Source: a bacterium (GTDB taxonomy: Bacteria; Bacteroidota; Bacteroidia; B-17B0; Aurantibacillaceae). Taken from it: a stretch of 58,304 nt of DNA. The notes beneath the pieces were generated by a model, which saw only the letters and a list, made by a program, of their open reading frames with translations, was not told where the DNA came from and did no database searches. A program made the translations under genes and the position numbers. This document shows positions 16,093 through 35,887 of this stretch, piece after piece (within the stretch, counting starts at the first letter, position 1; every line of letters begins with the position of its first letter). Location of the stretch: positions 1 to 58,304 of the forward strand of contig JAQSCW010000003.1 in NCBI GenBank assembly GCA_029945625.1. The letters are read 5' to 3'.

Positions 16093-17283
16093 GTGAAAAC
16101 ATTAAGAGAAATAGTAGAGTATTGTAAACTACAGTCGTTTGACCTCAAGTTCACAAGAGCTCAAGAATGGAAATCGGAAAAAAGTGGGCGTGTATTAGTA
16201 GGATACATGCCCATTTATTTTCCAAGAGAAATTATTCATGCAGCCGGTGCTATGCCGGTTGGAATTTTTGGCGGCGGAGACCGTAAGCAGATCATCAAAG
16301 GAGATGCGTATTACCAAAGTTATATTTGCCACATTCCACGGAGCATCATCGAAATGGCACTTGATAAACACATGGATCATATTGATGGATTTATATTCCC
16401 TTCTATATGTGATGTGATTAGAAATCTGTCGGGTATTTTTAAACAACAGAAGATAGGGAAATTCGTGAAGTACATGGATTTTCCACAAAACTTTTTACCC
16501 GAAATCGGCGGTGTGTTTTATCAGCAAGAAATGCAGCATGTTTTAAAGTACATTAAAGAACTTAATAATGTTGACGTCACAACTGAAGCCCTCAATCACT
16601 CCATCGCTTTATACAATTTGAACCGAAACTTGATCTCTGAGATTTATGACATCCGGCAGGATTTTCCATGGAGGTTAACAATTGAGGAGGTATACTATAT
16701 AGTAAGAGCGGGTACCGTAATTCCGGTAGAGGAGCATAATGAGTTGCTTGAAAAGGTGTGCGAATTAATTAAGAAAGACATTGGTGTGCCACAAGATAAA
16801 ATTAAAGTGGTTATTTCGGGCGCCTTTTGCGAACAGCCGGCAATTGGTTTGATAAAAGCAATTGAGGAGGCAGGGTGTTATGTGGTGGATGATGATTATA
16901 TGCTTGGCTCGCGTATGATTTTGGGGGACATTGATACAACGAGTAAAAATCCGCTGGAGGCCATTTCCAATTCCTACATCAAACAAAGTCAATATTCGTC
17001 CTCTATCTACGATATTGATAATCCGAAGGAGTACCGTTTAGCAAAAATTGTTGAACGCCGCGGGGCCAATGGCGTCATTTTCGCGTCGGCAAGTTTCTGT
17101 GATCCCAGTTTACTGGACGCGCCCATCTTTCAAAACGCGTTTAATAAAATGGGAATCCGTTACATCTCGTTCCAATTCAGCGAAAATATCAATCAATACA
17201 AAGTAATTAAAGAACAAGTAGGGGCATTTTCAGATTCGATTAAATTATGGGAAGACGAACCCCTGGTATCAGCTCATAATTAG
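16093..17283 (+). CDS. bcrC: Benzoyl-CoA reductase (class I, ATP-dependent), gamma subunit BcrC
   Basis: The 396-residue protein is of the HgdB/2-hydroxyacyl-CoA dehydratase fold. The stretch VGYMPIYFPREIIHAAGA, then IFGGGDRKQIIKGDAYYQS, is the BcrC signature seen in Thauera. Three Cys in ligand positions for a [4Fe-4S] cluster are visible: Cys79 (SYICHIP), Cys106 (PSICDVI) and Cys336 (SFCDPS). With BcrB it forms the ring-reducing module that converts benzoyl-CoA to cyclohexa-1,5-diene-1-carbonyl-CoA. The start is GTG at 16093; an ATG seven bases earlier is followed at once by a stop in its own frame. First gene of a long operon; bcrB follows after 30 bp. Confidence 0.93.
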   Translation: MKTLREIVEYCKLQSFDLKFTRAQEWKSEKSGRVLVGYMPIYFPREIIHAAGAMPVGIFGGGDRKQIIKGDAYYQSYICHIPRSIIEMALDKHMDHIDGFIFPSICDVIRNLSGIFKQQKIGKFVKYMDFPQNFLPEIGGVFYQQEMQHVLKYIKELNNVDVTTEALNHSIALYNLNRNLISEIYDIRQDFPWRLTIEEVYYIVRAGTVIPVEEHNELLEKVCELIKKDIGVPQDKIKVVISGAFCEQPAIGLIKAIEEAGCYVVDDDYMLGSRMILGDIDTTSKNPLEAISNSYIKQSQYSSSIYDIDNPKEYRLAKIVERRGANGVIFASASFCDPSLLDAPIFQNAFNKMGIRYISFQFSENINQYKVIKEQVGAFSDSIKLWEDEPLVSAHN

Positions 17284-17313
17284 TAGATGAAACAACATAT
17301 AAAATTTTAAGAG

Positions 17314-18603
17314 ATGGCACAGGAAGCACAAAAAGAAAGAAGTATGGTCCTCCAAAAGGAGATGATTGATGGGCTTTTTAACGATCTGGCAAAGGCTAAA
17401 GAAACTGGAAAGAAAGTGTGTTACACGTTCATACCGGGCAATCTTTCAGAGTTAATTCGAACATTTGACCTGCTGCCTGTTTACCCCGAAATAAATGCTC
17501 TTCAAAGCGCCATGCGAAAAAAATCGGCCGCCTATATTAAAGAAGCGGAACGCAACGCGCACTCAGAAGATGTGTGTACTTACGTAAAATGTGATGTGGG
17601 CATGATGATGAAAGGAAACATAGGTCCCACCGGCTTGAAGATTCCGGAACCGGATATTTTATTATTGAGTTATACCGGATGTTTTACTTTTTTAAAATGG
17701 TTCGAAACATTAAAAAGAGAATATCCGAATGCAAAGGTGATTATGGTGCACACTCCTTATCAAGAGAACGCTGAAATGACTCCCGAAATGACCCAATACA
17801 TGGTGAAACAGTTCAAAGAGGAAGTGATCCCTCAAATGGAAGCTGTAACAGGGATAAAGTATGATGAAGAAAAACTGAAACGGCATTTGGTATTGGCGAA
17901 AGAAGCGCAGGACTGGATCACTAAAATTTTTGATACCACCAAACATGTGCCTTCGCCTATTGATGCCTATTTTGCGGGTGTATATTATATTGGCCCAATT
18001 AATATTGGATTCAGAGGTACACAAGAAGCAGTTGATTATTATAAAGAGCTTTACAACGAAATTCAGGAACGCATCAAATTGGGATTAGGACCTATTACTC
18101 CCGAAGGGGAGATGAAAGAAGAAAAATACCGCCTGGTTGTAGAGGGCCCACCTAATTGGACCAGTTTCCGCGAATTCTGGAAATTATTTTACGACATGGG
18201 AGCCGTTATTGTGGCTTCTTCCTATACCAAAGTAGGCGGTGTGTATGACATGGGCTGGCGCCACGATGCCAGTCGGCCTCTCGAATCTTTGGCCGAGTAT
18301 TGTATGAATTGTTATACGAATTTGAATATCCCGCAGCGCATCGATCTTTTGGCAAAATGTATCACCGATTACAAAGCCGACGGCTACATTACCAATTCTA
18401 TTAAAAGCTGTAATTCATTTTCGGCAGGCCAATTGCCCATGATGAGGGCCATTGAAGACAGATTAGAAGTGCCGGTAGGATTTATTGAATCCGATTTGGT
18501 TGATCCTCGCTACTTCTCTTATTCAAATATTAAGAATCGGTTGGAGTCGTATTTTCAAATGTTAGAACAAACCAAAGCACTCAAAGAAACGGAAAGTGTT
18601 TAG
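17314..18603 (+). CDS. bcrB: Benzoyl-CoA reductase (class I), beta subunit BcrB
   Basis: 429 residues, HgdB fold. Cluster-ligand Cys88 (SEDVCTYVK), Cys123 (SYTGCFTFLKW) and Cys366 (SIKSCNSFS) match the family pattern. It partners BcrC in the catalytic half, binding the CoA ester and receiving electrons from the BcrAD activase at low potential. The motif GVYDMGWRHDASRPLESLAEYC and the late GFIESDLVDPRYFS (read separately) are as in known BcrB. Placed in the bcrC-bcrB-bcrA-bcrD order of the Thauera type. 48 bp to bcrA. Confidence 0.93.
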   Translation: MAQEAQKERSMVLQKEMIDGLFNDLAKAKETGKKVCYTFIPGNLSELIRTFDLLPVYPEINALQSAMRKKSAAYIKEAERNAHSEDVCTYVKCDVGMMMKGNIGPTGLKIPEPDILLLSYTGCFTFLKWFETLKREYPNAKVIMVHTPYQENAEMTPEMTQYMVKQFKEEVIPQMEAVTGIKYDEEKLKRHLVLAKEAQDWITKIFDTTKHVPSPIDAYFAGVYYIGPINIGFRGTQEAVDYYKELYNEIQERIKLGLGPITPEGEMKEEKYRLVVEGPPNWTSFREFWKLFYDMGAVIVASSYTKVGGVYDMGWRHDASRPLESLAEYCMNCYTNLNIPQRIDLLAKCITDYKADGYITNSIKSCNSFSAGQLPMMRAIEDRLEVPVGFIESDLVDPRYFSYSNIKNRLESYFQMLEQTKALKETESV

Positions 18604-18651
18604 AAAAAAGAGGTGTAATAATCGTCATTCATCATTCAATTAAATAGAGAC

Positions 18652-20070
18652 ATGAAAAAATATTATTTAGGAGTTGATCTGGGTTCCACTACTTCCAAAG
18701 CAGTCATCATCAATGAAAAAGATGAAATTGTGGGGAGGGGAATCACCAATACCAGAGCCAATTATAAAGTGGCTGCCGATATAGCCCGCGAAGAAGCAAT
18801 TTACGATGCGCGATTCACTTTGCTTTCTAATAAGATTAAACAGGACATGGAATCCAAACCTGAATTCAAGAAATACATGGAGGACATACGCACGGTATTT
18901 CAATACCAGCAATTCAAGCGACGAATGGAAAGTTTGGAGACCACCCTCAAAAAAACAGTGTCTGCGTTTTCATACGCCAATAAAGAGGCGATAGCGCATC
19001 GTATCAGCGTGATCATCGAGAACATTCGTCCCCAAATAAAAAATGAATTTATTCACGGCAATATAGGATCTAAAAATCAGTTCTTCCGCGATATTGTGAG
19101 TGAAAAATACAACGCGGAAGTGGCCATCGTGGGTCGCGAATTTTATGAACCGTTAATGTTGGCTTTTGACAAGAGTATAACCCCGGTTGAGAATGAAATG
19201 GTGCAATACAATTTTAAAGAATTGGTGTTGGAATCCATGGCGCTGTTGGAGGAAAAGTACAAAGGATTAGCGGAGCAGCAGGAAGATGGGAGCAAAGAAG
19301 ATTGGTACTATGCTGAATTAAACGCTGTAAAAAATAATTATAAGAATGTGGAGATTACCCTTCGCGAGCACATTGAAGCCATTGCGAGCGAAGACATCCA
19401 TATTGCCAAAATGGTTGGCACCGGCTATGGTCGTGCCTTATTACCGTTTCCTGAAGATTGTATCAAATCAGAAATTTTATGTCATGCCTTTGGAGCGCAT
19501 GCTATTTTTCCAAATACACGAACTGTATTAGATATTGGCGGGCAAGACACAAAGGCGATTCAAGTGGATAGTCATGGTTTAGTAACGAGCTTTCATATGA
19601 ACGATCGCTGCGCCGCAGGCTGTGGTCGTTATTTGGGCTACATCGCCGATGAGTTTGGTTTGTCGTTGAATGAACTTGGACCTGAAGCCATGAGCTCCAC
19701 CAAAGAAACCGTGATCTGTTCCACCTGCACAGTATTTGCCGGTGCAGAGGTAAAAGAATTATTGCACAATGGGGAGGAACGTCCAAATATTTTAGCAGGA
19801 CTGCATAAAGCCATTGTACAAAGGGCCATGTCGCTGATTGCCCGGTCAGGCGGTGTAAAAAATGAATTCACATTTACAGGTGGTGTGGCACGAAATCAGG
19901 CAGTTCTAAAATATGTAAAACAAATGGTGAAAGATTCTTATGGCGATCTTACCATGAACATTCACACGGACTCTATTTTTATGGGAGCTCTGGGTGGTGC
20001 CATGTTCGCACGAAGAAATATCAGTGCCGACTTGCCGGTGGCCAGAAAAGCAAACGTAATGGAAGAATAA
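18652..20070 (+). CDS. bcrA: Benzoyl-CoA reductase (class I), ATPase subunit BcrA
   Basis: 472 residues. This ASKHA-fold ATPase couples ATP hydrolysis to electron transfer. The phosphate-1 loop GVDLGSTTSKAVI (about 7-19) is followed by a long insert (about 60-245) that distinguishes BcrA from the shorter HgdC activators. Phosphate-2 motif VLDIGGQDTKAIQ, Cys320 in NDRCAAGCGRY and Cys359 in CSTCTVFAGAE supply the half of the bridging [4Fe-4S] cluster. The adenosine motif TFTGGVARN lies near the end. It pairs with BcrD, 30 bp downstream. Confidence 0.94.
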   Translation: MKKYYLGVDLGSTTSKAVIINEKDEIVGRGITNTRANYKVAADIAREEAIYDARFTLLSNKIKQDMESKPEFKKYMEDIRTVFQYQQFKRRMESLETTLKKTVSAFSYANKEAIAHRISVIIENIRPQIKNEFIHGNIGSKNQFFRDIVSEKYNAEVAIVGREFYEPLMLAFDKSITPVENEMVQYNFKELVLESMALLEEKYKGLAEQQEDGSKEDWYYAELNAVKNNYKNVEITLREHIEAIASEDIHIAKMVGTGYGRALLPFPEDCIKSEILCHAFGAHAIFPNTRTVLDIGGQDTKAIQVDSHGLVTSFHMNDRCAAGCGRYLGYIADEFGLSLNELGPEAMSSTKETVICSTCTVFAGAEVKELLHNGEERPNILAGLHKAIVQRAMSLIARSGGVKNEFTFTGGVARNQAVLKYVKQMVKDSYGDLTMNIHTDSIFMGALGGAMFARRNISADLPVARKANVMEE

Positions 20071-20100
20071 AACAAATTCAAAATACTAAAAGTAAAAGTC

Positions 20101-20961
20101 ATGGGAAACAGAATTTACACAATGGGCGTAGATGTTGGAGGAAGTTATGTGAAGGCGGTGCTAATGTCGTACGACCATCAGGGAGGCGATCACCAGTTGG
20201 TGGATAAACAAACTGAGAAGATCAGGAAACGTAATCCGAAAGACGTGGTGGTGGAAGCCGTAGATACAATCCTGGAACGTAACAAACTCGATTACTTAAA
20301 AAATATATCGTATCTGGCATCCACCGGTGAAGGAGAAATGGTTGAAAAAAAGACCGGACATTTTTACAGCATGACTTCTCATGCCAGAGGAGGAATATTT
20401 TTTGCGCCGAAAGCTAAAACGATAGTGGATATGGGTGGCTTATATGTGAGGGCCATCAAAGTAGATAGCAGAGGAAAAGTATTGGATTATAAAATGACCG
20501 GGCAGTGTGCTTCCGGCTCAGGACAATTCATCGAAAACATTTCACGTTATTTAGGATTGGCCATCGAAGAAGTAGGCGCCATCTCTTTAAAAGCTGATAA
20601 TCCCGAAGTGCCATCCGGAATATGCGCTGTATTGGCTGAAACCGACGTGATCAATTTGGTATCAAAAGGACTTTCAACTCCCAACATTGTAAAAGGTATC
20701 AATATTTCTATTTCGCAGCGCGTGGTAAAATTATTGGGATCCTTACGCACCGAATCTCCCATTGCGTTGGTGGGAGGCATGGGAATGAATGCCGGAATGA
20801 TTCAGGCCATTGAAGAACTGGCTACTGAAAACAAAAAGGGCGAACTGGAATTTTTAACGCACAAAGATGCCATCTACTCAGGAGCTGTTGGCGCGGCTTT
20901 GTGGGGAGGGTATCGTTTTTATAAATTAAAAGAAAAACAAACGGTACTGGCTGCTCATTAA
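20101..20961 (+). CDS. bcrD: Benzoyl-CoA reductase (class I), ATPase subunit BcrD
   Basis: 286 residues, the second ASKHA ATPase of the BcrAD activase. GVDVGGSYVKAVLMS opens the fold, IVDMGGLYVRAIKV is the second phosphate motif, Cys136 (TGQCASGSGQF) and Cys175 (SGICAVLAETDV) bind the shared cluster, and ALVGGMGMN is the adenosine motif. The length and the TGQCASGSGQF/ICAVLAETD pair identify it as BcrD rather than a generic activator. The operon continues with the synthetase gene after 59 bp. Confidence 0.94.
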   Translation: MGNRIYTMGVDVGGSYVKAVLMSYDHQGGDHQLVDKQTEKIRKRNPKDVVVEAVDTILERNKLDYLKNISYLASTGEGEMVEKKTGHFYSMTSHARGGIFFAPKAKTIVDMGGLYVRAIKVDSRGKVLDYKMTGQCASGSGQFIENISRYLGLAIEEVGAISLKADNPEVPSGICAVLAETDVINLVSKGLSTPNIVKGINISISQRVVKLLGSLRTESPIALVGGMGMNAGMIQAIEELATENKKGELEFLTHKDAIYSGAVGAALWGGYRFYKLKEKQTVLAAH

Positions 20962-23175: not shown

Positions 23176-24390
23176 ATGTATAAGATACAAAGCACAAAAT
23201 TGATGAAGGAAGTAATGGGAAATTATTTTCTGGGCATGAAAGATCCTTCCAAGAAAATTGCCTGGTGCACCAGCGTGGGGCCTGCCGAATTATTGCGGTC
23301 TTTTGGTTTTGAAGTACATTTTCCTGAGAATCACGGAGCCTTGTTGGGAGCCACCCGTACTGCCGGTGATCTTATTCCCGAGGCCGGCAAGCTGGGGTAT
23401 TCAAATGATATTTGCTCGTATTTAACGGCAGATATTGGTTCGTATTTAAAAAAGGAAACACCTTTAAAAGAACACTATGGACTCAATGGTCCTCCGAAAC
23501 CCGATCTCATCGTTTACAATACCAATCAATGCCGTGAAGTACAGGATTGGTTCAGCTATTTTTCACGTGAACTCAATTGTCCTATTTTCGGAATTAATCC
23601 CCCGCGGCATGTTGATGAAGTAACGCGGGAGGAAATAGACGATGTGGCTTCTCAATTCAAACAGCTTATTCCTTTATGTGAAAAAGTAACCGGCACTAAA
23701 TTTGACATCGATCGTTTTAAGGAAACGCTCAAATTGAGCGCCGAAGCAACAGAGCTATGGAAAAAAGTATTATATACCGCCACCAAAACTCCTGCTCCTA
23801 TTAGTTTTTTTGATGCCACCATTCATATGGGTCCAATTGTGGTGCTTCGCGGAACCACAGTGGCCAAAGACTATTATTCAGTTCTTTTAAAAGAACTGGA
23901 GGAGAATGTAAAGAGTGGAATAGGATTTTTGGAAAAGGAACAATGCCGTTTGTATTGGGATGGTATGCCTATTTGGGGAAAACTGCGACCGCTTTCAGAA
24001 TTATTTTCGCAAAATAATGCCGCCGTAGTGGCGTCCACCTATTGTAACAGTTGGATCTTTGATGCGTTTGATGAACGTCATCCCTTTGAGTCTTCTGCTC
24101 AGGCCTATACCGAAATATTTATTAATAGAAGTGAAGAAGCAAAACAGCGTTTGTTAAGTGATCTTATTCATCTGTTTAGGATTGATGGAATTATTTTCCA
24201 CGATGCCAAAACCTGTGCCAATAATTCAAATTCGAGATTCGGCTTACCCCAGCGCATTACCGAGTCTTTAGGAATTCCACACATGGTCATCGAAGGAGAT
24301 CTCTGCGACCTGAGGTTCTACTCCGAAGGCCAAAGCATCACAAAAATTGAAACATTTATCGAACAATTAGAAATCGCCAAAGTGAGCTAA
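23176..24390 (+). CDS. Second HgdB/BcrB-like subunit (2-hydroxyacyl-CoA dehydratase / benzoyl-CoA reductase family)
   Basis: 404 residues, clearly homologous to BcrB but distant from it. All three expected cluster Cys are kept: Cys80 (SNDICSYLTADIG), Cys119 (NTNQCREVQDW) and Cys347 (DAKTCANNS). HMGPIVVLRG and VIEGDLCDLRFYS match the family's late motifs. Enzymes of this type normally need a second, related subunit; none is adjacent, so it may be a homodimer, pair with BcrC, or use the next small protein. Position between the synthetase and an activase fusion suggests an independent reductive module. Substrate unknown. Confidence 0.85.
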   Translation: MYKIQSTKLMKEVMGNYFLGMKDPSKKIAWCTSVGPAELLRSFGFEVHFPENHGALLGATRTAGDLIPEAGKLGYSNDICSYLTADIGSYLKKETPLKEHYGLNGPPKPDLIVYNTNQCREVQDWFSYFSRELNCPIFGINPPRHVDEVTREEIDDVASQFKQLIPLCEKVTGTKFDIDRFKETLKLSAEATELWKKVLYTATKTPAPISFFDATIHMGPIVVLRGTTVAKDYYSVLLKELEENVKSGIGFLEKEQCRLYWDGMPIWGKLRPLSELFSQNNAAVVASTYCNSWIFDAFDERHPFESSAQAYTEIFINRSEEAKQRLLSDLIHLFRIDGIIFHDAKTCANNSNSRFGLPQRITESLGIPHMVIEGDLCDLRFYSEGQSITKIETFIEQLEIAKVS

Positions 24391-24409
24391 CAATTCAAAA
24401 ATAGGAGTC

Positions 24410-24877
24410 ATGAATGCAAATTCCCCTTTCGACAATAAGATCTACAAACTCTCTACCGGTGAAGAGGTTCTCGCCGATGTGGTGGAGAATTTGATTGAGA
24501 AAACTTGCCACTATGTGAAATATGCTCTGGTGCGTCAAAATGATAAAAACGAAACCGTCGCATTTTTATTTCCAAATTCAAGTTTGTACGCTCACCCCGA
24601 TTATGTGCTCACCACCAATGAAGGCTGTTTTTGTCCGCGAAGTTTGGCCGAATTGGGAAAATGCATGACCGGTTGTTTGAAACTCATCAATTTTAAATTG
24701 GCAGAAGGGGATGATAAATTAAAGGCGGCTGTGCTGGCTAACAGTGATTCATCGTTGGCAGAAACAGGAGGGATGTCGTACCATGAGTTGGTGGACACTT
24801 ATAAAGCCTTACTCACCAAACGGCACGGCCCCAATGTGTCGGAAGAAGATGAAATCTATTTTATAAAAAATATTTAG
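24410..24877 (+). CDS. Small Cys-containing protein, distantly like the C-terminal domain of acyl-CoA ligases
   Basis: 155 residues. The first 50 (YKLSTGEEVLADVVENLIE, then KYALVRQ and VAFLFPNS) resemble the start of the C-terminal lid domain of AMP-forming acyl-CoA synthetases, where KLSNGK-like and EN-L motifs occur. No adenylation core is present. A Cys cluster CFCPRSLAELGKCMTGC (about 74-90) is unlike that domain and could bind metal or Fe-S. It sits 19 bp after the HgdB-like gene and 34 bp before the activase fusion, which implies a shared function. The family link is a weak resemblance only. Confidence 0.55.
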   Translation: MNANSPFDNKIYKLSTGEEVLADVVENLIEKTCHYVKYALVRQNDKNETVAFLFPNSSLYAHPDYVLTTNEGCFCPRSLAELGKCMTGCLKLINFKLAEGDDKLKAAVLANSDSSLAETGGMSYHELVDTYKALLTKRHGPNVSEEDEIYFIKNI

Positions 24878-24911
24878 GAAGCAATCCACCACACCGCAAA
24901 TCGATAGACAC

Positions 24912-26768
24912 ATGAAAAAAACAGAAAAAGTTAAGATTGGAGTTGTCGGAATGGGGCCGGTGGGTATGATTCTGGCCGTAAAACTAAAAGAAGCAGGTTG
25001 TGTGGTTGCTATTTGCGACAAAGATGATTTTAAACTTAAAAAAATCCGTGAAGAAGGAATTGTTCTGGAGAACATGTTTGAATCGGTAACGAGGTTTGAA
25101 CATATTTTTGATTCCATCGCCGATATGCGCGAACTTGAATTGGATTATCTGGTGCTCTCTCTCAAAACTTACCAAACGCCCGGCGCACTGAAAGAGGCAG
25201 AGCGCATCAATTCCGATAAACTCATCTTTATTTCAGCGCAAAACGGAATTGATACAGAGGGGATCATAGCTTCTGTATTCGGGGAATCGAAAACTCTGCG
25301 TATGGTGATCAATTATGCAGGAAATATGTCTTCACCCAATACAGCCAAGGTCTCTTTTTTCACTCCTCCCAATTATATTGGTTCTATTGATGACAGCAGA
25401 AGTACAGAAGCCAAACGTTTTGCCGATATATTGAACAGTGTTGATTTCACTACCAAGGAACTTAATTCGTTTGAATTGCTAAAAAGTACATGGCAAAAAA
25501 CAATTCTCAACGCATCACTTAGCGCTTTGTGCGGCGTGGGTCGACTCACCATGGCCGAAGCGATGGCGGATGAAGATACCATTGAACTTATAGAACAAAT
25601 CATCAACGAAGGAGTTGAAGTGGCCAAGAAGGAGAAGATTAGGTTTCCGGATGATTTTATTAGAAAGTGCATGCAATACCTGAAAAAGGGAGGCGACCAC
25701 TTTCCTTCTCTTGCCATTGACCTCATGAATAACCGGCAAACCGAGATCGATTATTTTAACGGGAAAATTGTGGAGTACGGAAAAAAACATTACGTAAAAA
25801 CTTCTTTAAATCTGTCGTTTACCAACATGGTAAAAGCCATGACGAATAAAAGTATTTTGAACAGGATTCCGGGTCCGGAAGGAGAGCTCACCAAACGCAT
25901 TGTAAATAAGGGCTTGGTAGATAAACATCGGTCCTCCATCATTTACAAGGAGAATGATTTTTTTCTTGGAATAGATTTGGGCTCGGCCTTTACAAAATTT
26001 ACAATCATAGATGACAAAGGTATTCCGGTATTCAGATACGTGTTGCAAACCATGAATAAGGATCGGCATGCCATGAAGAACGTGATGCAGGCAATCAATT
26101 CGGCGTTCAACATTAAGTACAGTTGTGCTACCGGCTATGGACGAAAACATTTTACAGATACCGACATCATAAAAACGGAGATCAACTGCGCGGCGGCCGG
26201 TGTTGCCGAATTTCACCCCGGCGAAAAAAACATCATTGATATTGGTGGCGAAGACATTAAAATCATCCATGCCAACCACGATAATCAGGTTGCCAATTTT
26301 TACATGAACGACAAGTGCGCGGCGGGAACAGGCGCTTTTTTGGAAGAGATTTCAGAACGCGCCGAAATAAATATCTCCGATATGAGTAGCCTAGCTGCCC
26401 ATTCGAGTTACGACAAAGAACTCAATAGCTTTTGTACTGTGTTTGCAAAAACCGAGATCATGAGCTGGGTATTCGATGGGATGCCGAAACCCGATATTGC
26501 CAGAGGAATCTACATTTCAATTGCCAATAAGGTGACTAAAATGCGTTTGTTTCCCAATATTCCAACGCTCATGATTGGCGGCGTTATCGAGCATCATCCT
26601 TATTTAAGTATCATCCTAAGCAAGAAATTCAACATCGAAATTAAAACCATCGACCATCCTCAATTTATTGTATCGTTTGGCGCGGCAAGCATCGCCAAAC
26701 ACCAATGGGAGGTTCTTAACAAAAGCGGCTCACCAAAAAAGGAACTAATTAATTCTGATAATATATGA
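24912..26768 (+). CDS. Fusion: ketopantoate-reductase-like dehydrogenase plus BcrA/HgdC-type ATPase activator
   Basis: 618 residues, two unrelated domains in one uninterrupted frame. Residues about 5-320 are an ApbA/PanE fold: NAD(P) loop IGVVGMGPVGMILAVKL, SAQNGID, the catalytic-type Lys in STWQKTILNASLSALCG, and HFPSLAIDLMNNRQTEIDYF. Residues about 349-610 are an ASKHA activase: GIDLGSAFTKF, IIDIGGEDIKII, Cys469 in NDKCAAGTGAFLEE, Cys508 in SFCTVFAKTEI, and MIGGVIEHH. Both Cys of the interdomain [4Fe-4S] are kept, so the activator half could work as a homodimer like HgdC. The gene overlaps the thiolase start by 4 bp (ATGA). The domain pair suggests 2-oxoacid reduction coupled to a 2-hydroxyacyl-CoA dehydratase. 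Confidence 0.88.
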   Translation: MKKTEKVKIGVVGMGPVGMILAVKLKEAGCVVAICDKDDFKLKKIREEGIVLENMFESVTRFEHIFDSIADMRELELDYLVLSLKTYQTPGALKEAERINSDKLIFISAQNGIDTEGIIASVFGESKTLRMVINYAGNMSSPNTAKVSFFTPPNYIGSIDDSRSTEAKRFADILNSVDFTTKELNSFELLKSTWQKTILNASLSALCGVGRLTMAEAMADEDTIELIEQIINEGVEVAKKEKIRFPDDFIRKCMQYLKKGGDHFPSLAIDLMNNRQTEIDYFNGKIVEYGKKHYVKTSLNLSFTNMVKAMTNKSILNRIPGPEGELTKRIVNKGLVDKHRSSIIYKENDFFLGIDLGSAFTKFTIIDDKGIPVFRYVLQTMNKDRHAMKNVMQAINSAFNIKYSCATGYGRKHFTDTDIIKTEINCAAAGVAEFHPGEKNIIDIGGEDIKIIHANHDNQVANFYMNDKCAAGTGAFLEEISERAEINISDMSSLAAHSSYDKELNSFCTVFAKTEIMSWVFDGMPKPDIARGIYISIANKVTKMRLFPNIPTLMIGGVIEHHPYLSIILSKKFNIEIKTIDHPQFIVSFGAASIAKHQWEVLNKSGSPKKELINSDNI

Positions 26769-28027
26769 AGGCCTACCACTCTAAAGAAAAAGGAATTGGA
26801 ATACTGTTTGATGAGATCTATGTGGTGAATGGGGCCCGAACGCCATTTGGTAAATATTGCGGCACACTGGCCAATGTGTCTCCCACTGATCTGGGGATTT
26901 TCGCCAGTCGTGCCGCATTAATTAAATCAAGTGTCTCAGCAACCGACATCGATCAGGCCATTATGGCCAATATTGGTCAGGCTTCGGGAGATGCTTATTT
27001 TCTTCCCCGTCACATTGCATTATTTGCGGGACTACCGATTACTGTGCCTTCACTCATGGTGCAACGTATTTGCGCTTCCGGATTTGAGACGCTCATTACT
27101 GCGTCAGAACAAATTACGTTGGGAAAAGCGGGAACAGTATTATGTTGCGGAACAGAAAACATGTCGCTTGCTCCAACTGTAAGTTTTGGAAACAGGATGG
27201 GCTACATGCTGGGTCGCCCTGTATTTAAGGATATGTTATGGGAAGCCTTCGACGATACCGCGGCCGGTTACCCCATGGGATTTACTGCCGAAAATGTGGC
27301 AAAGAAACACCAGCTCACTCGTGCACAATGCGATGAATACGCACTTCTTTCTTTTAGCCGTGCCGTGCACGCTAAAAAAAACGAAGTGTTCAAAGAAGAG
27401 ATCACTCCCATCAATAGCACCGTATTTGAAGCCGATGGATTGAAACCCCGAAAAGTGCGCTTGGCCGGTGGTGTAAAAGATTTTGTGACCGACGAACATA
27501 TTCGCGAAACCAACATCGAATCTTTAACTAAACTTCCCACTGTATTTTCGGAAGTAGGCGTGCTCACCGCCGGAAACTGCAGTGGCATTGTCGACGGTTC
27601 AGCTGCAGCGGTGGTGGCCGACAAAAATTCCATCGCGGCAAAAGGATTAAAACCCATCGCCAAAATTGTGGGAGGAGCTACCTGCGGTGTCGATCCTAAA
27701 TTAATGGGATTAGGTCCTGTTCCTGCAATAAAACTTTTGCTCGAAATGAGCGGATTAAAAATTGAAGACATTGGTTTGTTTGAGATCAACGAAGCATTTT
27801 CTTCGCAGGTACTTGGTTGTGAAATTGAACTGGGACTCGACCGAAATAAACTGAATGTGAACGGGGGCGCTATTGCCATGGGTCATCCACTCGCAGCAAG
27901 CGGACTGAGGTTGTCGCTCACCTTGATTCGCGAAATGAATCTTCGGAAAGTGAAATACGGAATCGCTTCGGCATGTATTGGAGGCGGACAGGGTACAGCA
28001 ATTTTATTTGAAAACACCTCTCTTTAG
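26765..28027 (+). CDS. Acetyl-CoA acyltransferase (thiolase)
   Basis: 420 residues. Active-site Cys in QRICASGFE, His in INEAFSSQ (Asn-Glu-Ala-Phe), His in MGHPLAASG and Cys in ASACIGGGQG are all present, so the enzyme should be active. In the benzoyl-CoA pathway a thiolase cleaves 3-oxopimelyl-CoA to glutaryl-CoA and acetyl-CoA; this is the likely role. The start overlaps the previous gene; the ~17 residues before DEIYVVNGARTPFG are longer than usual but no better start is seen. Confidence 0.92.
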   Translation: MKAYHSKEKGIGILFDEIYVVNGARTPFGKYCGTLANVSPTDLGIFASRAALIKSSVSATDIDQAIMANIGQASGDAYFLPRHIALFAGLPITVPSLMVQRICASGFETLITASEQITLGKAGTVLCCGTENMSLAPTVSFGNRMGYMLGRPVFKDMLWEAFDDTAAGYPMGFTAENVAKKHQLTRAQCDEYALLSFSRAVHAKKNEVFKEEITPINSTVFEADGLKPRKVRLAGGVKDFVTDEHIRETNIESLTKLPTVFSEVGVLTAGNCSGIVDGSAAAVVADKNSIAAKGLKPIAKIVGGATCGVDPKLMGLGPVPAIKLLLEMSGLKIEDIGLFEINEAFSSQVLGCEIELGLDRNKLNVNGGAIAMGHPLAASGLRLSLTLIREMNLRKVKYGIASACIGGGQGTAILFENTSL

Positions 28028-28037
28028 AAATTTTACT

Positions 28038-29096
28038 ATGAGCAAGATCCAACAGTGGCAGATGACAGAATTGAAATCCAATTTTAAATTGGTGGAGACA
28101 GATTTGCCAAGAATAAATGAAAACGAAGCCTTGGTAAAAATTGCCGGCTGCGGTGTATGTCATACCGATTTGAGTTTTTGGCACGACGGGGTGAAGACCA
28201 AAAAAGAAATGCCCTTAACCTTGGGACATGAAATAAGTGGAACAGTTATTGAGGGTCCTCTTCACCTCAAAGGAAAGAATGTGATCATTCCTGCTGTATT
28301 GCCATGTGGGGAATGTGAGTTGTGTAAAAAAGGACGAAGCAATATGTGCCAGAATCAACTCATGCCGGGAAATGATTTTCATGGCGGATTTGCCTCGCAT
28401 ATTGTGGTGCCACATCGTTATTTATGTCCGGTACCCGATTCCTTATTAAAAAAATATTCCCTTGAACAATTGTCGGTGATTGCCGATGCCATTTCAACGC
28501 CGTATCAGGTGATGAAAAAATCGGAACTGGAAAAAGGGGATTTGGCTATTGTGATCGGGGTGGGGGGCGTTGGTGTTTACGGCGCCCTGATCGCCAAAAT
28601 AATGGGAGCAAAAGTATTGGCTATTGATATTAATGACGAGAAGCTAAATCAGGCAAAACAGCATGGTGTAGATGCCACTCTTAATTCAAAGGGACTAGAC
28701 ACGAAAGAGATAAAAAACAAAGTAAGGGAAATAGCAAAAGAATTGGGTGTCTCCAAATACGGTTGGAAATTATTTGAATTTTCGGGAAGCACCGCTGGTC
28801 AAGACCTTGCGTTTAATCTCATCACCTATACATCAACCCTCAGCATTGTTGGGTTTACGATGAATAAACTCGAAGTTCGTTTAAGTAATCTTATGGCTTT
28901 CGATGCCAAATTGATTGGCACCTGGGGATGTAAACCCGAATTATATCCCGAAGTAGTGGGATTGATCGCCGATGGGAAATTGGAGATAAAGGATTTTGTT
29001 CAAACGTTTCCTATGTCGAAAATTAATGAAGTATTTAAGAATACACTTGATCACAAATATGATAAACGCTCAGTGTTAGTGCCAGATTTCAATTAA
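28038..29096 (+). CDS. had: 6-hydroxycyclohex-1-ene-1-carbonyl-CoA dehydrogenase
   Basis: The medium-chain, zinc-dependent alcohol dehydrogenase oxidises 6-hydroxycyclohex-1-ene-1-carbonyl-CoA to the 6-oxo compound with NAD. Motifs: catalytic-zinc GCGVCHTDLSFWHDGVK, GHEISG, structural-zinc CGECELCKKGRSNMC, and nucleotide loop GVGGVGVYG. The residues HDGVKTKKEMPLTLGHE are close to Thauera Had. The frame is open from 27978, but that start would overlap thiolase by 50 bp; the ATG at 28038 gives 352 residues, near the usual ~360, and is chosen here. Confidence 0.9.
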   Translation: MSKIQQWQMTELKSNFKLVETDLPRINENEALVKIAGCGVCHTDLSFWHDGVKTKKEMPLTLGHEISGTVIEGPLHLKGKNVIIPAVLPCGECELCKKGRSNMCQNQLMPGNDFHGGFASHIVVPHRYLCPVPDSLLKKYSLEQLSVIADAISTPYQVMKKSELEKGDLAIVIGVGGVGVYGALIAKIMGAKVLAIDINDEKLNQAKQHGVDATLNSKGLDTKEIKNKVREIAKELGVSKYGWKLFEFSGSTAGQDLAFNLITYTSTLSIVGFTMNKLEVRLSNLMAFDAKLIGTWGCKPELYPEVVGLIADGKLEIKDFVQTFPMSKINEVFKNTLDHKYDKRSVLVPDFN

Positions 29097-29116: not shown

Positions 29117-29962
29117 ATGAAAAAATTATTACTAAGTGTCGCTCTTCTAACAGCATTTAATGTGGCTGTTTTTTCCCAAGATGATGAAGCGGGCTGTAAG
29201 GACCACGCCATGCTCACACGTATGCCCTCCTATTATATTTCGGCATGCTCAAAATCTTTTAATCAATTGGAAATTCCCGTCGGCATGTCCTCGGGAGAGC
29301 AGAACAGGAAGACACTAGAAGGGAATGTTTCGTCAATCGAATACAACCGCAAGGAAGATCAAGAAGGGAAACTTCCCAGCTGGTTCCAGATTATAAAGAA
29401 CTATGAAAATGCCCTGGCAAAAATAGGAGGTAAAAAAGTGTACAGCGATGTACAATCTGCTACATTTCAGATTGTAGGGGCAAGCAAAGATGCCTGGATT
29501 TCGCTCGACTTAAATAGCAGTGATGCCGACGGCGTAAATGTATATTCATTTGTCGCTAAAATAATTGAAATGGAAGCGATGACGCAGGATATTCAGTCGA
29601 CCGAAATATTTCAAAAACTGAGCGCCGAAGGTCATATTGCCTTGTATATCAATTTTGAAACAGGGAAATCGGACATTAAACCTGAATCGCAAAAAGTAAT
29701 TGATGAAATGGCAGAAATGCTTAATAATAATGCCACGCTAAAGGTGAGCATTGAAGGGCATACGGATAATGTGGGGACAACGGCGAATAATAAAACATTA
29801 TCCGAATCGCGGGCAAGGGCGGTGATGAATGCTTTGATCGCAAAGGGTATCGACAAAGGCAGACTCAGTTCAAAAGGCTGGGGACAAGAGAAGCCGGTGG
29901 CAGACAATATAACAGATGAAGGAAAAGCAAAAAATCGTCGCGTTGAAATTGTAAAAATGTAA
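29117..29962 (+). CDS. OmpA-family outer-membrane/peptidoglycan-binding protein
   Basis: 281 residues with signal peptide (MKKLLLSVALLTAFNVAVFS, cut near residue 20). After a region of unknown fold (about 25-165) comes an OmpA C-terminal domain: INFETGKSDIKPESQKVID, IEGHTDNVG, LSESRARAVMNALI and KGWGQEKPVADN ending NRRVEIVKM. That domain binds peptidoglycan. Its place between had and oah, on the same strand with short gaps, is odd for a soluble CoA pathway. It may be a passenger or may assist uptake of aromatic acids. Confidence 0.9.
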   Translation: MKKLLLSVALLTAFNVAVFSQDDEAGCKDHAMLTRMPSYYISACSKSFNQLEIPVGMSSGEQNRKTLEGNVSSIEYNRKEDQEGKLPSWFQIIKNYENALAKIGGKKVYSDVQSATFQIVGASKDAWISLDLNSSDADGVNVYSFVAKIIEMEAMTQDIQSTEIFQKLSAEGHIALYINFETGKSDIKPESQKVIDEMAEMLNNNATLKVSIEGHTDNVGTTANNKTLSESRARAVMNALIAKGIDKGRLSSKGWGQEKPVADNITDEGKAKNRRVEIVKM

Positions 29963-30010: not shown

Positions 30011-31117
30011 ATGAAAGAACTAAAAGATCACAATCTCACACAACACACGTATACCGACATTCTTTTTGAAAAGCGTCCCTGTTTAAATACAAATGGCGAA
30101 GTGGTAAAAGACCTCTTCAATGCATGGATTATCCTCAACAATCCGAAGCAATACAATTCTTATACCACTACCGCGGTGAAAGAAATCATCATGGCCTTTG
30201 GCGAGGCTTCCAATGACCGTAGCGTGGTAGCAGTTGTTTTCACGGGCGCTGAAGATAAAGCGTTTTGCACCGGTGGAAACACCAAAGAATACGCCGAATA
30301 TTATTCGGGAAATCCTCAAGAGTATTCTCAATACATGCGTTTGTTTAACGACATGGTGAGCGCCATTTTAAAATGTGAAAAACCTGTTATTTGTCGGGTT
30401 AATGGCATGCGTATTGGAGGCGGACAAGAAATTGGAATGGCCTGTGATTTCACAATTGCATCTGATCTTGCACGCTTTGGGCAAGCCGGACCAAAACATG
30501 GAAGTGCGGCCATTGGCGGATCAACCGATTTTCTGCATTTGTTTGTGGGAATTGAACGAGCCATGAATTCACTTACCCTGTGTGAGCCATGGACAGCCCA
30601 TCAGGCACTACAGGTGGGTTTAATCACCGACATTGCGCCCGCATTAAAAGTGGACGGAAAATACGTTGCAAATCCATTAGTAAATATTACACATTATGCC
30701 GACGACTATGGCAGAATCATTTACGGGTCGATGAAGACTGGAACTGAGCTGGCCAGAGGAAAGGAACTCATGGCGAAAGGAGAAGTGGATCTGTCGAAAT
30801 TGGATGAGTTGACGAATAAATTGATTGCAAAATTAGTATACACGTTCCCAAATTGTTTGTCGAAGACGCTTACTGAAGTACGGAAGAAAAAGTTGGAGCA
30901 TTGGGATAAGAATAAAGAAAGTAACCGTGAATGGCTGGCATTAAACATGATGTCGGAGGGAAAAGCCGGATTCAGAGCCTTTAACGATGGACCAAAAAAC
31001 GACAGAGAGATTAACTTTATTAAACTCCGTCAATTGTTGGCGGAAGGAAAAGAATGGAACGAAGATTTGCACAAAGCAATTTCACCTCAATTTCAAAACA
31101 CTGAAACTTTACACTAA
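30011..31117 (+). CDS. oah: 6-oxocyclohex-1-ene-1-carbonyl-CoA hydrolase (ring opening)
   Basis: 368 residues, crotonase superfamily. This is the BamA/Oah enzyme that opens the ring to 3-hydroxypimelyl-CoA, widely used as a marker of anaerobic aromatic degradation. Signatures: NNPKQYNSYTTTAVKEI, FTGAEDKAFCTGGNTKEYAEYY, RIGGGQEIGMACDFTIASD, and GPKHGSAAIGGSTDFL. The length fits the ~377-residue Thauera protein. Its stop overlaps the dch start by one base (TAATG), indicating translational coupling. Confidence 0.96.
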   Translation: MKELKDHNLTQHTYTDILFEKRPCLNTNGEVVKDLFNAWIILNNPKQYNSYTTTAVKEIIMAFGEASNDRSVVAVVFTGAEDKAFCTGGNTKEYAEYYSGNPQEYSQYMRLFNDMVSAILKCEKPVICRVNGMRIGGGQEIGMACDFTIASDLARFGQAGPKHGSAAIGGSTDFLHLFVGIERAMNSLTLCEPWTAHQALQVGLITDIAPALKVDGKYVANPLVNITHYADDYGRIIYGSMKTGTELARGKELMAKGEVDLSKLDELTNKLIAKLVYTFPNCLSKTLTEVRKKKLEHWDKNKESNREWLALNMMSEGKAGFRAFNDGPKNDREINFIKLRQLLAEGKEWNEDLHKAISPQFQNTETLH

Positions 31118-31890
31118 TGGAAAAGATAAAGATAGAATACCAGCACGATGCCACAGTGGCTCGCATTATTTTGGATGATGGAAAAGGAAATGTACTAAAT
31201 AGCCAAATGATGGAAGAACTTCAAAGTCTTCTTGATTCGTTTAAACTGCAAAATAAATTGAAGCTGATCACCTTTGAAGGCGAAGGAAAACATTTTTCTT
31301 TTGGAGCAAGTGTAGAAGAACATCAGCGCGATATGGCAGCCGTGATGTTGCGCGATTTTCATAAATTATTTTTCACCATTCGCGACCTCGCCATTCCCAC
31401 TCTCGCAAAAATATCGGGACAATGTTTGGGAGGAGGTTTGGAATTGGCGCTGATCTGCAATTTTTTGTTTGCCGATAAAACCGCCAAACTGGGACAGCCC
31501 GAAATTTGTTTAGGAGTGTTTCCTCCGCCGGCGTCCATTATTCTTCCTTTAAAGATTGGGTTTGCCCGAGCTGAAGAACTTTTGATTACAGGCAGTTCCA
31601 TCACTGCGGAAGTGGCATTTGAAATAGGTTTAGTAAACAAGATCTTTGACGATAAACATGTATTGGCTTGCGAAACTGATATTTGGATTGAACAGAATAT
31701 TCTGCCCAAAAGTGCTTCTTCACTAAGATACAGCGTAAAGGCAGCGAGGGTGCAATTTAATCACATTCTCACTAACTTTTTACCGCAGCTTGAAAATCTC
31801 TATGTGAATCAGTTAATGGCCACAAAAGATGCAAACGAAGGGATTCATTCCTTTCTTGAAAAAAGGTTGCCTGTTTGGGAAAATTGTTAA
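31117..31890 (+). CDS. dch: Cyclohexa-1,5-diene-1-carbonyl-CoA hydratase
   Basis: 257 residues, crotonase fold, the length of Thauera Dch (258). It hydrates the dienoyl-CoA made by BcrCBAD to 6-hydroxycyclohex-1-ene-1-carbonyl-CoA. Visible: LDDGKGNVLNSQMMEEL, the oxyanion-hole FGASVEEHQ (in place of the G-A-D of common hydratases) and GQCLGGGLELALICNFLFAD, then KLGQPEICLGVFPPPAS. FSFGASVEEH and FPPPAS are features I associate with Dch. One-base overlap with oah. Confidence 0.92.
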   Translation: MEKIKIEYQHDATVARIILDDGKGNVLNSQMMEELQSLLDSFKLQNKLKLITFEGEGKHFSFGASVEEHQRDMAAVMLRDFHKLFFTIRDLAIPTLAKISGQCLGGGLELALICNFLFADKTAKLGQPEICLGVFPPPASIILPLKIGFARAEELLITGSSITAEVAFEIGLVNKIFDDKHVLACETDIWIEQNILPKSASSLRYSVKAARVQFNHILTNFLPQLENLYVNQLMATKDANEGIHSFLEKRLPVWENC

Positions 31891-31911: not shown

Positions 31912-33909
31912 ATGAAAAAGATAAGCACAGTAGGAGTAGTTGGAGCCGGCACCATGGGCTCCGGTTTGGCACAAAAATTCTCACAGGAAGGATTTGAGGT
32001 AATTTTGGCGGACCGTTCGATTGAATTTGTGAACAAGGGTTTGGCGGGCATTAAAAAAGTTTTGAACGAAGGTCTTGAGAAAAAAGTATTTACACAGGGG
32101 CAAGTGGAAGAATATCTGCTAAACATAAAGGGAACTGATAGCTTGGAGGATCTTGCCGATTGTGATATTGTTATAGAAGCCATCTTCGAAGATTTTAAAG
32201 CGAAAGAAGATCTGTTCAAACAATTGTGTGAGATTGTTCCCGACGATACAATTTTGGCCACCAATACTTCTTCTTTTTCAGTGTCGGAATTGGCGTCGGC
32301 CATTACTAATCCGGCCAGGTTTATTGGAGTACATTATTTTTATCACGCTGCAAAAAACCGTTTGGTAGAAATTATTCCCGGTTCAAAAACCTCTTCCGAA
32401 ACCACACGCGCGGTGTATCGTTTCGCAATTCAGTCGGGTAAAGACCCAATCTTCACAGAAGATGCTTACGGATTCGCCATCAATCGCTTTTTTGTACCCT
32501 GGTTAAATGAGGCTTGTCGTTTGTTGCATGAAGAAAAAGGAAGTATAGGAATGATTGATGCCGTTTGTATGAAAACCTTTGGTATTGGTATGGGGCCCTT
32601 TGCCTTAATGAATGCCACCGGCGTGCCAATTGCCATGCATTCTCAAAAGACGCTTGAAATTTATGGTCCCGCTTATAAAGTTTCCTCTTTGCTTGAGCAC
32701 AAGGCCGAAAGTAAAACCAACTGGGAAATTAATGGTAGCGAAACTGTCCCAACAGAACAAGATGTAAAAGAAATAAACGAACGAATGCTGGGCTGTACAT
32801 TTTTTGTATGTTCTCAAATTTTGGAAGAAGATGTGTGCAGCGCCACCGATCTTAATAAAGGTGCAAAAATTGGTTTAAAATGGCGCAAGGGTCCTGTTGA
32901 CCTAATGCTTCAGTATGGGGAAACAGAAGTTAAGCGTTTAGTGGCCAATTATGTGGACTTGTATCAGGAATCCCTTCCCGATGGAATTCAAAAAAAATAT
33001 TGGGAACTTGAATTTGTGAGTTATTCTAAAATGAAGAACAGGGCCACCATTACCATGAACCGTCCTGAAGATCTGAATGCTTTGAATGAAGATGTGATGA
33101 AACAATTGGATCTGCAATTCTCCAAAGCAGAAGAAGATCCCGATATCGATACCATTTTTATTACCGGATCAGGAAAGGCATTTATTGCCGGCGCAGATAT
33201 TCGCTTTTTTGTGAAGAACATGAAGAGCCATACGATTTCCAACATCGTTAATTTCACAAAATACGGACAAACCGTATTTGAGAAGATTGATAAATCGCAG
33301 AAAAAAGTTATTGCTTTATTAAACGGCTTAGCGCTGGGAGGAGGACTGGAGTTGGCTTTGTGTGCGGACCATATTTTTGCTTTGTCCAAAGTAAATTTGG
33401 CTTTTCCTGAAACAGGTATTGGTATTTATCCAGGTTTGGGAGGTACTCAAAGAACTTCGTTACGTATAGGAAAAGGATTGGCAAAGTACCTTGTTCTCAC
33501 AGGAAAATCACTTAGCGCAAAAGAAGCCGAAGAAATTGGTCTGCTTGACAAAGTGATTAGCAGCGATGAATATTTTGAAATTCTGGAAGGCGGAAAATTG
33601 CCGGAGCTCAGTAAAAAAACCTGTTCGGGTAAATGGTTGGCCTATGCCGACTTTTATCAAAAGAACAAACTCGATTCTATTTTTGAAGGCAATTATGAAC
33701 TAGCAGGTTTGGAAAAGGAAGAACTCGAAAAGTTAAGGAAGAGCATGAGTTTTAAAGCGCCTGTTGCGATGCATTTTGCCGAAGAGCTGATCGACAATGC
33801 CAGGGGTCCGGCTTCAGAGCTTGAGAAGTTAACGGCGGTCTTCAGCACCGAAGATGCTATGGCAGGATTAAGTTCAATAGGGCAGAAAGTGACGTATCAG
33901 GGTAAATGA
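31912..33909 (+). CDS. 3-hydroxyacyl-CoA dehydrogenase / enoyl-CoA hydratase fusion
   Basis: 665 residues. The dehydrogenase comes first (VGVVGAGTMGSGLAQKF, ATNTSSFSVSEL, GVHYFYHA, NRFFVPWLNEA, about 5-385) and a crotonase domain second (about 385-655: RATITMNRPEDLNALN, GKAFIAGADIRFFVKN, ALGGGLELALCADHIFAL, GIYPGLGGTQR). This order is the reverse of FadB and matches archaeal and some anaerobe enzymes. The catalytic Glu in PGLGGTQR/ETGIG context appears kept. It would process 3-hydroxypimelyl-CoA and shorter intermediates. Last gene of the operon. Confidence 0.92.
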   Translation: MKKISTVGVVGAGTMGSGLAQKFSQEGFEVILADRSIEFVNKGLAGIKKVLNEGLEKKVFTQGQVEEYLLNIKGTDSLEDLADCDIVIEAIFEDFKAKEDLFKQLCEIVPDDTILATNTSSFSVSELASAITNPARFIGVHYFYHAAKNRLVEIIPGSKTSSETTRAVYRFAIQSGKDPIFTEDAYGFAINRFFVPWLNEACRLLHEEKGSIGMIDAVCMKTFGIGMGPFALMNATGVPIAMHSQKTLEIYGPAYKVSSLLEHKAESKTNWEINGSETVPTEQDVKEINERMLGCTFFVCSQILEEDVCSATDLNKGAKIGLKWRKGPVDLMLQYGETEVKRLVANYVDLYQESLPDGIQKKYWELEFVSYSKMKNRATITMNRPEDLNALNEDVMKQLDLQFSKAEEDPDIDTIFITGSGKAFIAGADIRFFVKNMKSHTISNIVNFTKYGQTVFEKIDKSQKKVIALLNGLALGGGLELALCADHIFALSKVNLAFPETGIGIYPGLGGTQRTSLRIGKGLAKYLVLTGKSLSAKEAEEIGLLDKVISSDEYFEILEGGKLPELSKKTCSGKWLAYADFYQKNKLDSIFEGNYELAGLEKEELEKLRKSMSFKAPVAMHFAEELIDNARGPASELEKLTAVFSTEDAMAGLSSIGQKVTYQGK

Positions 33910-35886: not shown

Positions 35887-35887
35887 G

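Follow-up and report, generated by a model that had tools for sequence, protein, structure and literature searches.

What does a solitary dehydratase-type subunit do, together with an activase fused to a dehydrogenase, in the midst of genes for the anaerobic breakdown of benzoyl-coenzyme A (benzoyl-CoA)? The question is raised by a 58,304-nucleotide stretch of DNA from a Bacteroidota genome (family Aurantibacillaceae; assembly GCA_029945625.1, contig JAQSCW010000003.1, positions 1 to 58,304; hereafter the window), in which three genes lie between bcrCBAD and had-oah-dch. They encode an HgdB-like subunit, a 155-residue protein (P155) and a fusion of a ketopantoate reductase (KPR)-family dehydrogenase with an activase. 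An earlier note, made from the letters alone, had read these genes as a module for a reductive 2-oxo-acid route, or for an aryl- or alicyclic-CoA reductase, tied to benzoate breakdown. All three open reading frames are present where it had placed them and are tightly spaced: 10 nt separate the gene for an ADP-forming acyl-CoA ligase (ACD) from the HgdB-like gene, 19 nt follow before P155 and 34 nt before the fusion, which overlaps a thiolase gene by 4 nt. Our tentative preference, held at a little short of even confidence, is for a unit of 2-hydroxyacyl-CoA dehydratase type that feeds the benzoyl-CoA pathway, most likely with an aryl substrate. That the module performs dehydratase-type chemistry is likely, judged from the sequences, and given such chemistry an aryl substrate is moderately probable.

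The three cluster ligands that the earlier note had seen in the HgdB-like protein, C80, C119 and C347, are kept in 78 of 78 rows of its alignment, and among rows with letters at these positions Ser33 is kept in 76 of 76 and Glu51 in 77 of 77; in 28 aligned rows the three cysteines, Ser33, Glu51 and Trp293 do not vary. HadB has Ser37 and Glu55 at the positions of Ser33 and Glu51, and the three cysteines align with what we take, by number, to be its cluster cysteines. The same cysteines align with those of BzdO, given as C95, C128 and C380 in one report, which locates Ser44 and Glu65 (the BzdO equivalents of Ser33 and Glu51) at a cluster-bound water that Glu65 bonds (PMC11971306). A TSVxPxEL ... 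PEN pattern is nearly invariant, as in HadB, whereas MbdO and the BcrB of the window carry ‘GN’ instead. Sequence scores to solved relatives place HadB (182 bits) before MbdO (130) and BzdO (75), as do profile scores (203, 160 and 104, respectively), and a fold model (pLDDT 81.9) puts HadB on top (TM score 0.85-0.88 versus 0.76-0.82), followed by MbdO, BzdO and DCCP, with second subunits lowest. The protein falls far under the reductase cut-offs (TIGR02260, 166 versus 486.55 bits; TIGR03191, 86 versus 448.6), and it combines PF06050 with the three cluster cysteines and the Ser/Glu pair of a dehydratase active-site subunit. On these sequence and model comparisons it is closest to HadB, the active-site subunit of a 2-hydroxyacyl-CoA dehydratase, rather than to BcrB.

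The fusion likewise proved complete, with PF02558, PF08546 and PF01869 all present and both equivalog models above cut-off (Table 1). Scanning one genome per species (GTDB r220) found 113 relatives, of which the best 80 were analysed; these loci were selected by presence of the fusion, and those of the window's own genome (L001-L003) are excluded from every count of loci. Hosts among these 80 are mainly Bacteroidetes, joined by Ignavibacteria, one Chlorobiota, one Calditrichota, one KSB1 and three Marinimicrobia, and by single contigs labelled Competibacteraceae and Thermoanaerobaculia, where misbinning is possible. The fear that the fusion might be an assembly artefact can be dropped, because the frame reads uninterrupted across the match in 79 of the 80 loci (L069 and L071 of these end at a contig edge; L072 is interrupted). 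Compared with relatives L004, L005 and L065, synonymous differences are saturated or nearly so (0.69-0.84 per site), and non-synonymous differences are 0.07-0.11 for the HgdB-like and fusion genes and 0.28-0.31 for P155, a contrast beyond what chance would give. Dehydrogenase and activase are encoded by split genes in four genomes, being neighbours in G472 and G484, parts of a single run with hcr-like genes between them in G294 (L086), and scattered, with two KPR copies, in G160. In trees built separately for the two halves, from 38 and 37 rows, the split forms branch basally to the fused forms or in their midst, which is compatible with one fusion event or several. L126 and L132 carry KPR genes that are only distantly paralogous, and nothing in L133 matches the module. 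In a plasmid collection 9 records gave matches, none with at least 80% of the fusion covered; three that were inspected carry two dehydratase-family genes beside an activase, with no KPR gene annotated in that stretch.

Within the KPR half the GxGxxG motif, N111, K196, N200, S266 and E278 are kept without exception (79-80 rows) and the equivalent of N184 is Ser in 80 of 80, the E. coli numbering and catalytic roles being those we assume for this family. Loss of NAD binding, which would have spoken against the module, is rejected since the cofactor motif is conserved. At the end of strand 2, the cofactor-selecting position, 64 of 79 rows have Asp or Glu, and Asp occupies it in the aligned 2ew2 and 3wfi, which suggests NAD(H) as the cofactor. 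These two are the best solved relatives of the KPR half across its entire length, and 3wfi is presumably an NAD-dependent D-mandelate dehydrogenase. This half is hardly a housekeeping pantoate enzyme (PanE), because TIGR00745, searched at E 1e-10, is without a match in 16 of 18 congeners; in the own genome only the fusion matches. As for the activase half, its best solved relative is HadI (4eht), its TIGR00241 score is above cut-off, and it has the two cysteines per subunit of dehydratase activases, C469 being kept in 80 of 80 rows and C508 in 79 of 79 with letters.

P155, described in the earlier note as a small Cys-rich protein, turned out to be something else. Its place is taken in 40 of 80 loci by a full-length AMP-forming ligase of 570-614 residues (PF00501 and PF23562 in L026 and L081, the pair that was scanned), to whose C-terminus it is homologous, and 28 loci have ACD with a short P155; ACD and a full-length AMP-ligase share a locus in 0 of 80. 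Intermediates of 173-185 residues in L041, G395 and G536 retain a piece of the ligase N-domain and lie directly or one gene behind bcrD (immediately after it in G536 and one gene further in G395, on contigs other than that of the fusion). The erosion was followed in 33 short rows, which include the window and L028 (cut at a contig start, and perhaps a ligase end) and exclude the cut, 357-residue L083. The four residues of the RKDR hinge survive in 0, 5, 1 and 6 of these rows, respectively, and the catalytic Lys survives in 4, whereas 40 of 40 full-length ligases have them all (we take these to be the A8 and A10 motifs). C73, C85 and C89 are present in all 33 and C33 and C75 in 32, the exception for C33 being L028, whose contig is cut before it. 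By its homology P155 is what remains of an AMP-forming acyl-CoA ligase, namely its C-terminal domain; ligase catalysis is apparently lost, and since its five cysteines were kept while hinge and Lys were lost they would serve a role other than adenylation. Its fold model is of middling quality (pLDDT 68.7), with ANL enzymes as top but weak hits; an unrelated small protein is rejected by the ligase homology, these folds and the eroded motifs. ACD thus appears to replace the AMP-ligase of other loci, some ligase (ACD, or the AMP type including contig-cut L083) being found in 70 of 80, a candidate for making the CoA ester of the 2-hydroxy acid, although its solved relatives do not single out a substrate. 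The Cys domain is out of view in 7 of 80 loci (L027, L043, L044, L045, L048, L054 and L069), most of them short or cut upstream, and was located elsewhere in the genomes of L054, L043 and L027. G160 has none beyond a 21-bit match inside a generic ligase, so the domain is not strictly required.

The module keeps constant company, both internally and with benzoyl-CoA reductase. Where at least 1500 nt precede the fusion (77 loci), the HgdB-like gene lies directly upstream of it in 75, bearing out the co-occurrence on which the earlier note had made its reading depend. Genes of bcr type occur in 66 of 80 loci (bcrD counted) and had, oah or dch in 60; nine have neither in view, four of which (L027, L043, L054 and L077, the last via an identical G422 contig) have a reductase elsewhere in the genome, the other five being L028, L034, L044, L046 and L069. 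In the reverse direction, with reductase models of bcr and bzd type only, the HgdB-like profile matched 4 of 395 genomes of the phylum at E 1e-60, and of the same four, three have a bcr-type subunit B above cut-off and the fourth a bzd-type subunit O, neither being found in any other genome. Were genomes independent, the chance of this would be about 1 in 1e9, or 1 in 1e7 without the own genome, figures made too optimistic by relatedness. KPR matches in frames the size of the fusion (615-656 residues) were found in six of 31 relatives, the own genome being one of the 31, and bcrB above cut-off in the same six. The fusion or its halves turned up in 13 of 197 genomes from the class to which G160 belongs, and reductase genes were seen in 12 of these 13; the contig of the thirteenth is too short, with had and oah visible. 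Module parts thus accompany bcr- and bzd-type reductases alike. Within the genus only 2 of 19 genomes have the set, so the module is accessory there, either gained or often lost. As background, all four bcrABCD subunits have been reported in 12 of 40 Krumholzibacteriota metagenome-assembled genomes, in a paper whose main text has neither ‘dehydratase’ nor ‘activase’ (PMC10936416). Two observations on reductase loci may be recorded here: in G422 (L146, 8002-17834) a bcr-type and a bzd-type-like set are adjacent in opposite orientation on one contig, and a saccharopine-dehydrogenase-like gene (cluster c23) lies between bcrA and bcrD in L042 (5014-6153) and six more loci, including L085.

A dehydrogenase, a ligase and an activase are the part list of a route from 2-oxo acid to 2-enoyl-CoA, as in the clostridial had/fld systems. 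In the route that we infer for the module, the KPR half would reduce a 2-oxo acid to the 2-hydroxy acid with a nicotinamide cofactor, probably NADH, and the acyl-CoA ligase of the operon (ADP-forming in the window, AMP-forming elsewhere) would make the CoA ester. The activase half, acting as an ATP-dependent dimer that holds one [4Fe-4S] cluster between its subunits, would then give one electron to the HgdB-like subunit, which would take off water to yield a 2-enoyl-CoA to be shortened by the neighbouring hydratase/dehydrogenase and thiolase. Starting from phenylalanine, phenylpyruvate would pass through (R)-phenyllactyl-CoA, the presumed stereoisomer, and cinnamoyl-CoA to benzoyl-CoA; from tyrosine, coumaroyl-CoA and 4-hydroxybenzoyl-CoA would lead to benzoyl-CoA via the adjacent Mo reductase.

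Arylpyruvates are preferred as substrates because of neighbouring amino-acid genes, hcr-like genes and the type of glutaryl-CoA dehydrogenase in the genome. In L025 a gene for a HisC-family aminotransferase comes after the fusion and before the thiolase, and in G160 a gene of this family shares 4 nt with a KPR gene. A member of the tryptophanase/tyrosine-phenol-lyase family shares 4 nt with the fusion in both L028 and L069; its match exceeds the cut-off of the tryptophanase subfamily model but not those of the equivalog models for tyrosine phenol-lyase and tryptophanase. Mo-hydroxylase (hcr-like) genes occur in 17 of 80 loci. The glutaryl-CoA dehydrogenase is nearest to decarboxylating enzymes; its best matches among solved structures reach 438 bits, and that to 3mpi, which we assume to be non-decarboxylating, 249 bits. 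This reading can be extended to a one-subunit dehydratase that, with its activase fused to its own 2-hydroxyacid dehydrogenase, turns phenylalanine and tyrosine into benzoyl-CoA via aryllactyl-CoA and (hydroxy)cinnamoyl-CoA, the ligase-derived Cys domain being an Fe-S electron-transfer or docking stand-in for the missing second subunit; taken whole, this picture is improbable.

Several points weigh against the dehydratase feeder. No second subunit of HadC/HgdB/FldC type was found, the PF06050 proteins of the genome being bcrB, bcrC and the HgdB-like protein only (E 0.001), so that a homodimer or an unrelated partner has to be assumed; DCCP, for its part, is a homodimer. Amino-acid genes stand at the module in just four cases (L025, L028, L069 and G160), and both HisC-like proteins score above the histidinol-phosphate transaminase cut-off, which makes their aromatic role a guess. 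L043 and L044 lack the upstream HgdB-like gene, the ligase or ACD could simply be a benzoate-CoA ligase, and in G160 ACD stands with bzd genes on a contig other than that of the dehydratase. Finally, the constant link to benzoyl-CoA reductase would fit a core role as well as a feeder.

The same chemistry might instead act on another substrate, interconverting 2-oxoglutarate, (R)-2-hydroxyglutaryl-CoA and glutaconyl-CoA off glutaryl-CoA in connection with 2-oxoglutarate:ferredoxin oxidoreductase (the electron source of the reductase), or acting on another aliphatic 2-oxo acid. HgdAB is a precedent, and 2-oxoacid:ferredoxin oxidoreductase genes occur in 14 of 80 loci; yet the bypass through glutaconyl-CoA is not needed, because the decarboxylating-type glutaryl-CoA dehydrogenase is present, and no 2-hydroxyglutarate dehydrogenase is among the best solved relatives of the KPR half. 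We therefore consider this unlikely. Another reading is a further reductase of aryl-CoA or alicyclic-CoA, such as the HgdB-like protein with BcrC powered by the activase of the fusion. It draws on the constant neighbourhood of benzoyl-CoA reductase, on PF06050 also covering BcrB, and on BcrC being the sole remaining PF06050 partner in the genome. Its difficulties are the HadB-type signature and scores, the lack of an evident place for a hydride dehydrogenase in an electron-only reductase, and the persistence of module parts beside reductases that are of bzd type or divergent, the identity of their C-subunit homologue being 26% in G160 and 32-34% in L081 and L082. That persistence led us to set aside the HgdB-BcrC hybrid as first choice, and the reductase as a whole is distinctly unlikely. 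Of the two suggestions in the earlier note, then, the reductive 2-oxo-acid route tied to the benzoyl-CoA pathway stands, on the logic of dehydrogenase, activase and dehydratase-type subunit, and the aryl-CoA reductase falls behind. Quite improbable, too, is an accessory or repair role in the pathway (activation, reductase maintenance or rescue of dead-end products, with a benzoate-CoA ligase and the Cys domain as Fe-S carrier for activases), which fits the exact co-occurrence with reductase in both genome samples and the Cys remnants near bcrD, away from the fusion's contig, in G536 and G395, but leaves a KPR with a complete catalytic set without a job and meets reductase and module parts without a Cys domain in G160.

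The genes around the module form an operon-like run on the plus strand (bcrCBAD, ACD, the HgdB-like gene, P155, the fusion, thiolase, had, an OmpA-like gene, oah, dch and a 3-hydroxyacyl-CoA dehydrogenase/enoyl-CoA hydratase fusion), 3' of which a 4-hydroxybenzoyl-CoA-reductase-like Mo enzyme is encoded on the minus strand (Table 1).

Table 1. Features of the window, with coordinates on its forward strand and supporting matches.
Feature	Coordinates	Strand	Basis
bcrC, bcrB, bcrA, bcrD, class I benzoyl-CoA reductase	16093-20961 (16093-17283, 17314-18603, 18652-20070, 20101-20961)	+	TIGR02263 426 and TIGR02260 634 bits, above cut-off; TIGR02259 423 and TIGR02261 297 bits, under cut-off
ACD, ADP-forming acyl-CoA ligase, 714 aa	21021-23165	+	PF13549, PF13607, PF13380; NF045493 568 bits (cut-off 1300, under)
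HgdB-like/HadB-like subunit, 404 aa	23176-24390	+	PF06050, 213 bits; C80, C119, C347, Ser33, Glu51; invariant C31 and C290
P155, 155 aa, remnant of AMP-ligase C-terminal domain	24410-24877	+	homology to C-terminus of full-length ligases; C33, C73, C75, C85, C89
KPR/activase fusion, 618 aa	24912-26768	+	PF02558, PF08546, PF01869
KPR (ApbA/PanE-family) dehydrogenase half	24930-25847	+	PF02558, PF08546; TIGR00745 156.9 bits (cut-off 141.35)
Activase half (BcrA/HgdC/HadI-type ATPase)	25965-26699	+	PF01869; TIGR00241 173.4 bits (cut-off 125.4); C469, C508
Thiolase	26765-28027	+	TIGR01930 387 bits, above cut-off
had, 6-hydroxycyclohex-1-ene-1-carbonyl-CoA dehydrogenase	27978-29096 (real start probably 3' of 27978)	+	TIGR03201 452 bits, above cut-off
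oah, 6-oxocyclohex-1-ene-1-carbonyl-CoA hydratase	30011-31117	+	TIGR03200 591 bits, above cut-off
dch, cyclohexa-1,5-dienecarbonyl-CoA hydratase	31117-31890	+	TIGR03189 227 bits (cut-off 292.5, under)
3-hydroxyacyl-CoA dehydrogenase/enoyl-CoA hydratase fusion	31912-33909	+	FadB/FadJ-like domains, order swapped; under equivalog cut-offs
4-hydroxybenzoyl-CoA-reductase-like Mo enzyme	34954-38677 (FAD subunit 34954-35886, fused gamma and alpha 35888-38677)	-	best subunit matches TIGR03195 209 and TIGR03194 790 bits; gamma part TIGR03193 171 versus XdhC_XDHase 178; all under cut-off

The OmpA-like protein, named by eye, is encoded on the same strand between had and oah (29117-29962). Beside the Mo reductase, at 38674-40093 on the minus strand, lie XdhC-like and MobA-like genes (named by eye and clustering), a pair that many loci also have next to bcrC and that accompanies a KPR copy in G160. 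Further upstream, at 9549-11765, lies the gene for a SulP/BicA-type transporter, the C-terminus of which has a weak match (42 bits) to residues 72-193 of a family 2B encapsulin model; after it come genes for a protein judged by eye to be cyclase-like and for a PPK2 kinase. In other loci acetophenone-carboxylase/caprolactamase-like genes (cluster c22, mostly with c24) are found 3' of the fusion region (L007, L022, L023, L024, L030, L047 and L062), and L022 has an HMG-CoA-synthase-like protein with a BbsA-like end, a hint of another aromatic feeder.

In many Bacteroidota, Ignavibacteria and Marinimicrobia, groups whose benzoyl-CoA chemistry has received little study, a conserved radical-enzyme module accompanies the genes for anaerobic breakdown of aromatic compounds. 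As the earlier note had supposed, no description of such a KPR/activase system was found in the open-licence literature, most of it screened as listings, which suggests, without proving novelty, that the three-gene module is so far undescribed. Were the aryl reading true, it would add a further anaerobic route from protein-derived phenylalanine and tyrosine to benzoyl-CoA and link clostridial reductive amino-acid fermentation with benzoyl-CoA aromatic degradation, which are known only apart. The fusion itself hints at the class of substrate behind an otherwise orphan activase, and the erosion of the ligase poses a question, open to experiment, about a cysteine (perhaps Fe-S) domain.

How does the module compare with known systems? 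The class I reductases BcrCBAD, BzdNOPQ and MbdONPQ share its superfamily and gene run, BcrB, BzdO and MbdO being homologous to the HgdB-like protein, but they need a C-subunit and an activase pair, unlike the module, and their TIGR02260 and TIGR03191 models are far from reached. The KPR-family 2-hydroxyacid dehydrogenases 3wfi and 2ew2 stand alone, without an activase. ANL ligases share the C-terminal domain of P155, which lacks their N-terminal domain and catalytic Lys; to the best of our knowledge a five-Cys signature like that of P155 has not been described. The (R)-2-hydroxyisocaproyl-CoA dehydratase operon of Clostridioides difficile, ldhA-hadAIBC, is alike in its dehydrogenase, CoA activation, activase and HadB-type subunit with the same cluster cysteines, Ser and Glu. 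It differs in that the module has a KPR-family dehydrogenase fused to the activase, a ligase rather than a CoA-transferase and no HadC, lies among benzoyl-CoA genes, and has an HgdB-like protein scoring 218 bits against NF052455 (cut-off 750). FldABC/FldI of Clostridium sporogenes performs the chemistry proposed here, from aryllactyl-CoA to cinnamoyl-CoA, whereas the module has a single PF06050 subunit and a fused activase, with no transferase seen and none sought. A phenyllactyl-CoA dehydratase step toward benzoyl-CoA has been proposed, from weak homologues, in a report on a benzene-degrading sulfate reducer (PMC13416013). The anaerobic phenylalanine route of Aromatoleum also ends in benzoyl-CoA, via phenylacetyl-CoA and phenylglyoxylate (PMC9765128); it proceeds by decarboxylation and alpha-oxidation, whereas the module would proceed by dehydration of aryllactyl-CoA.

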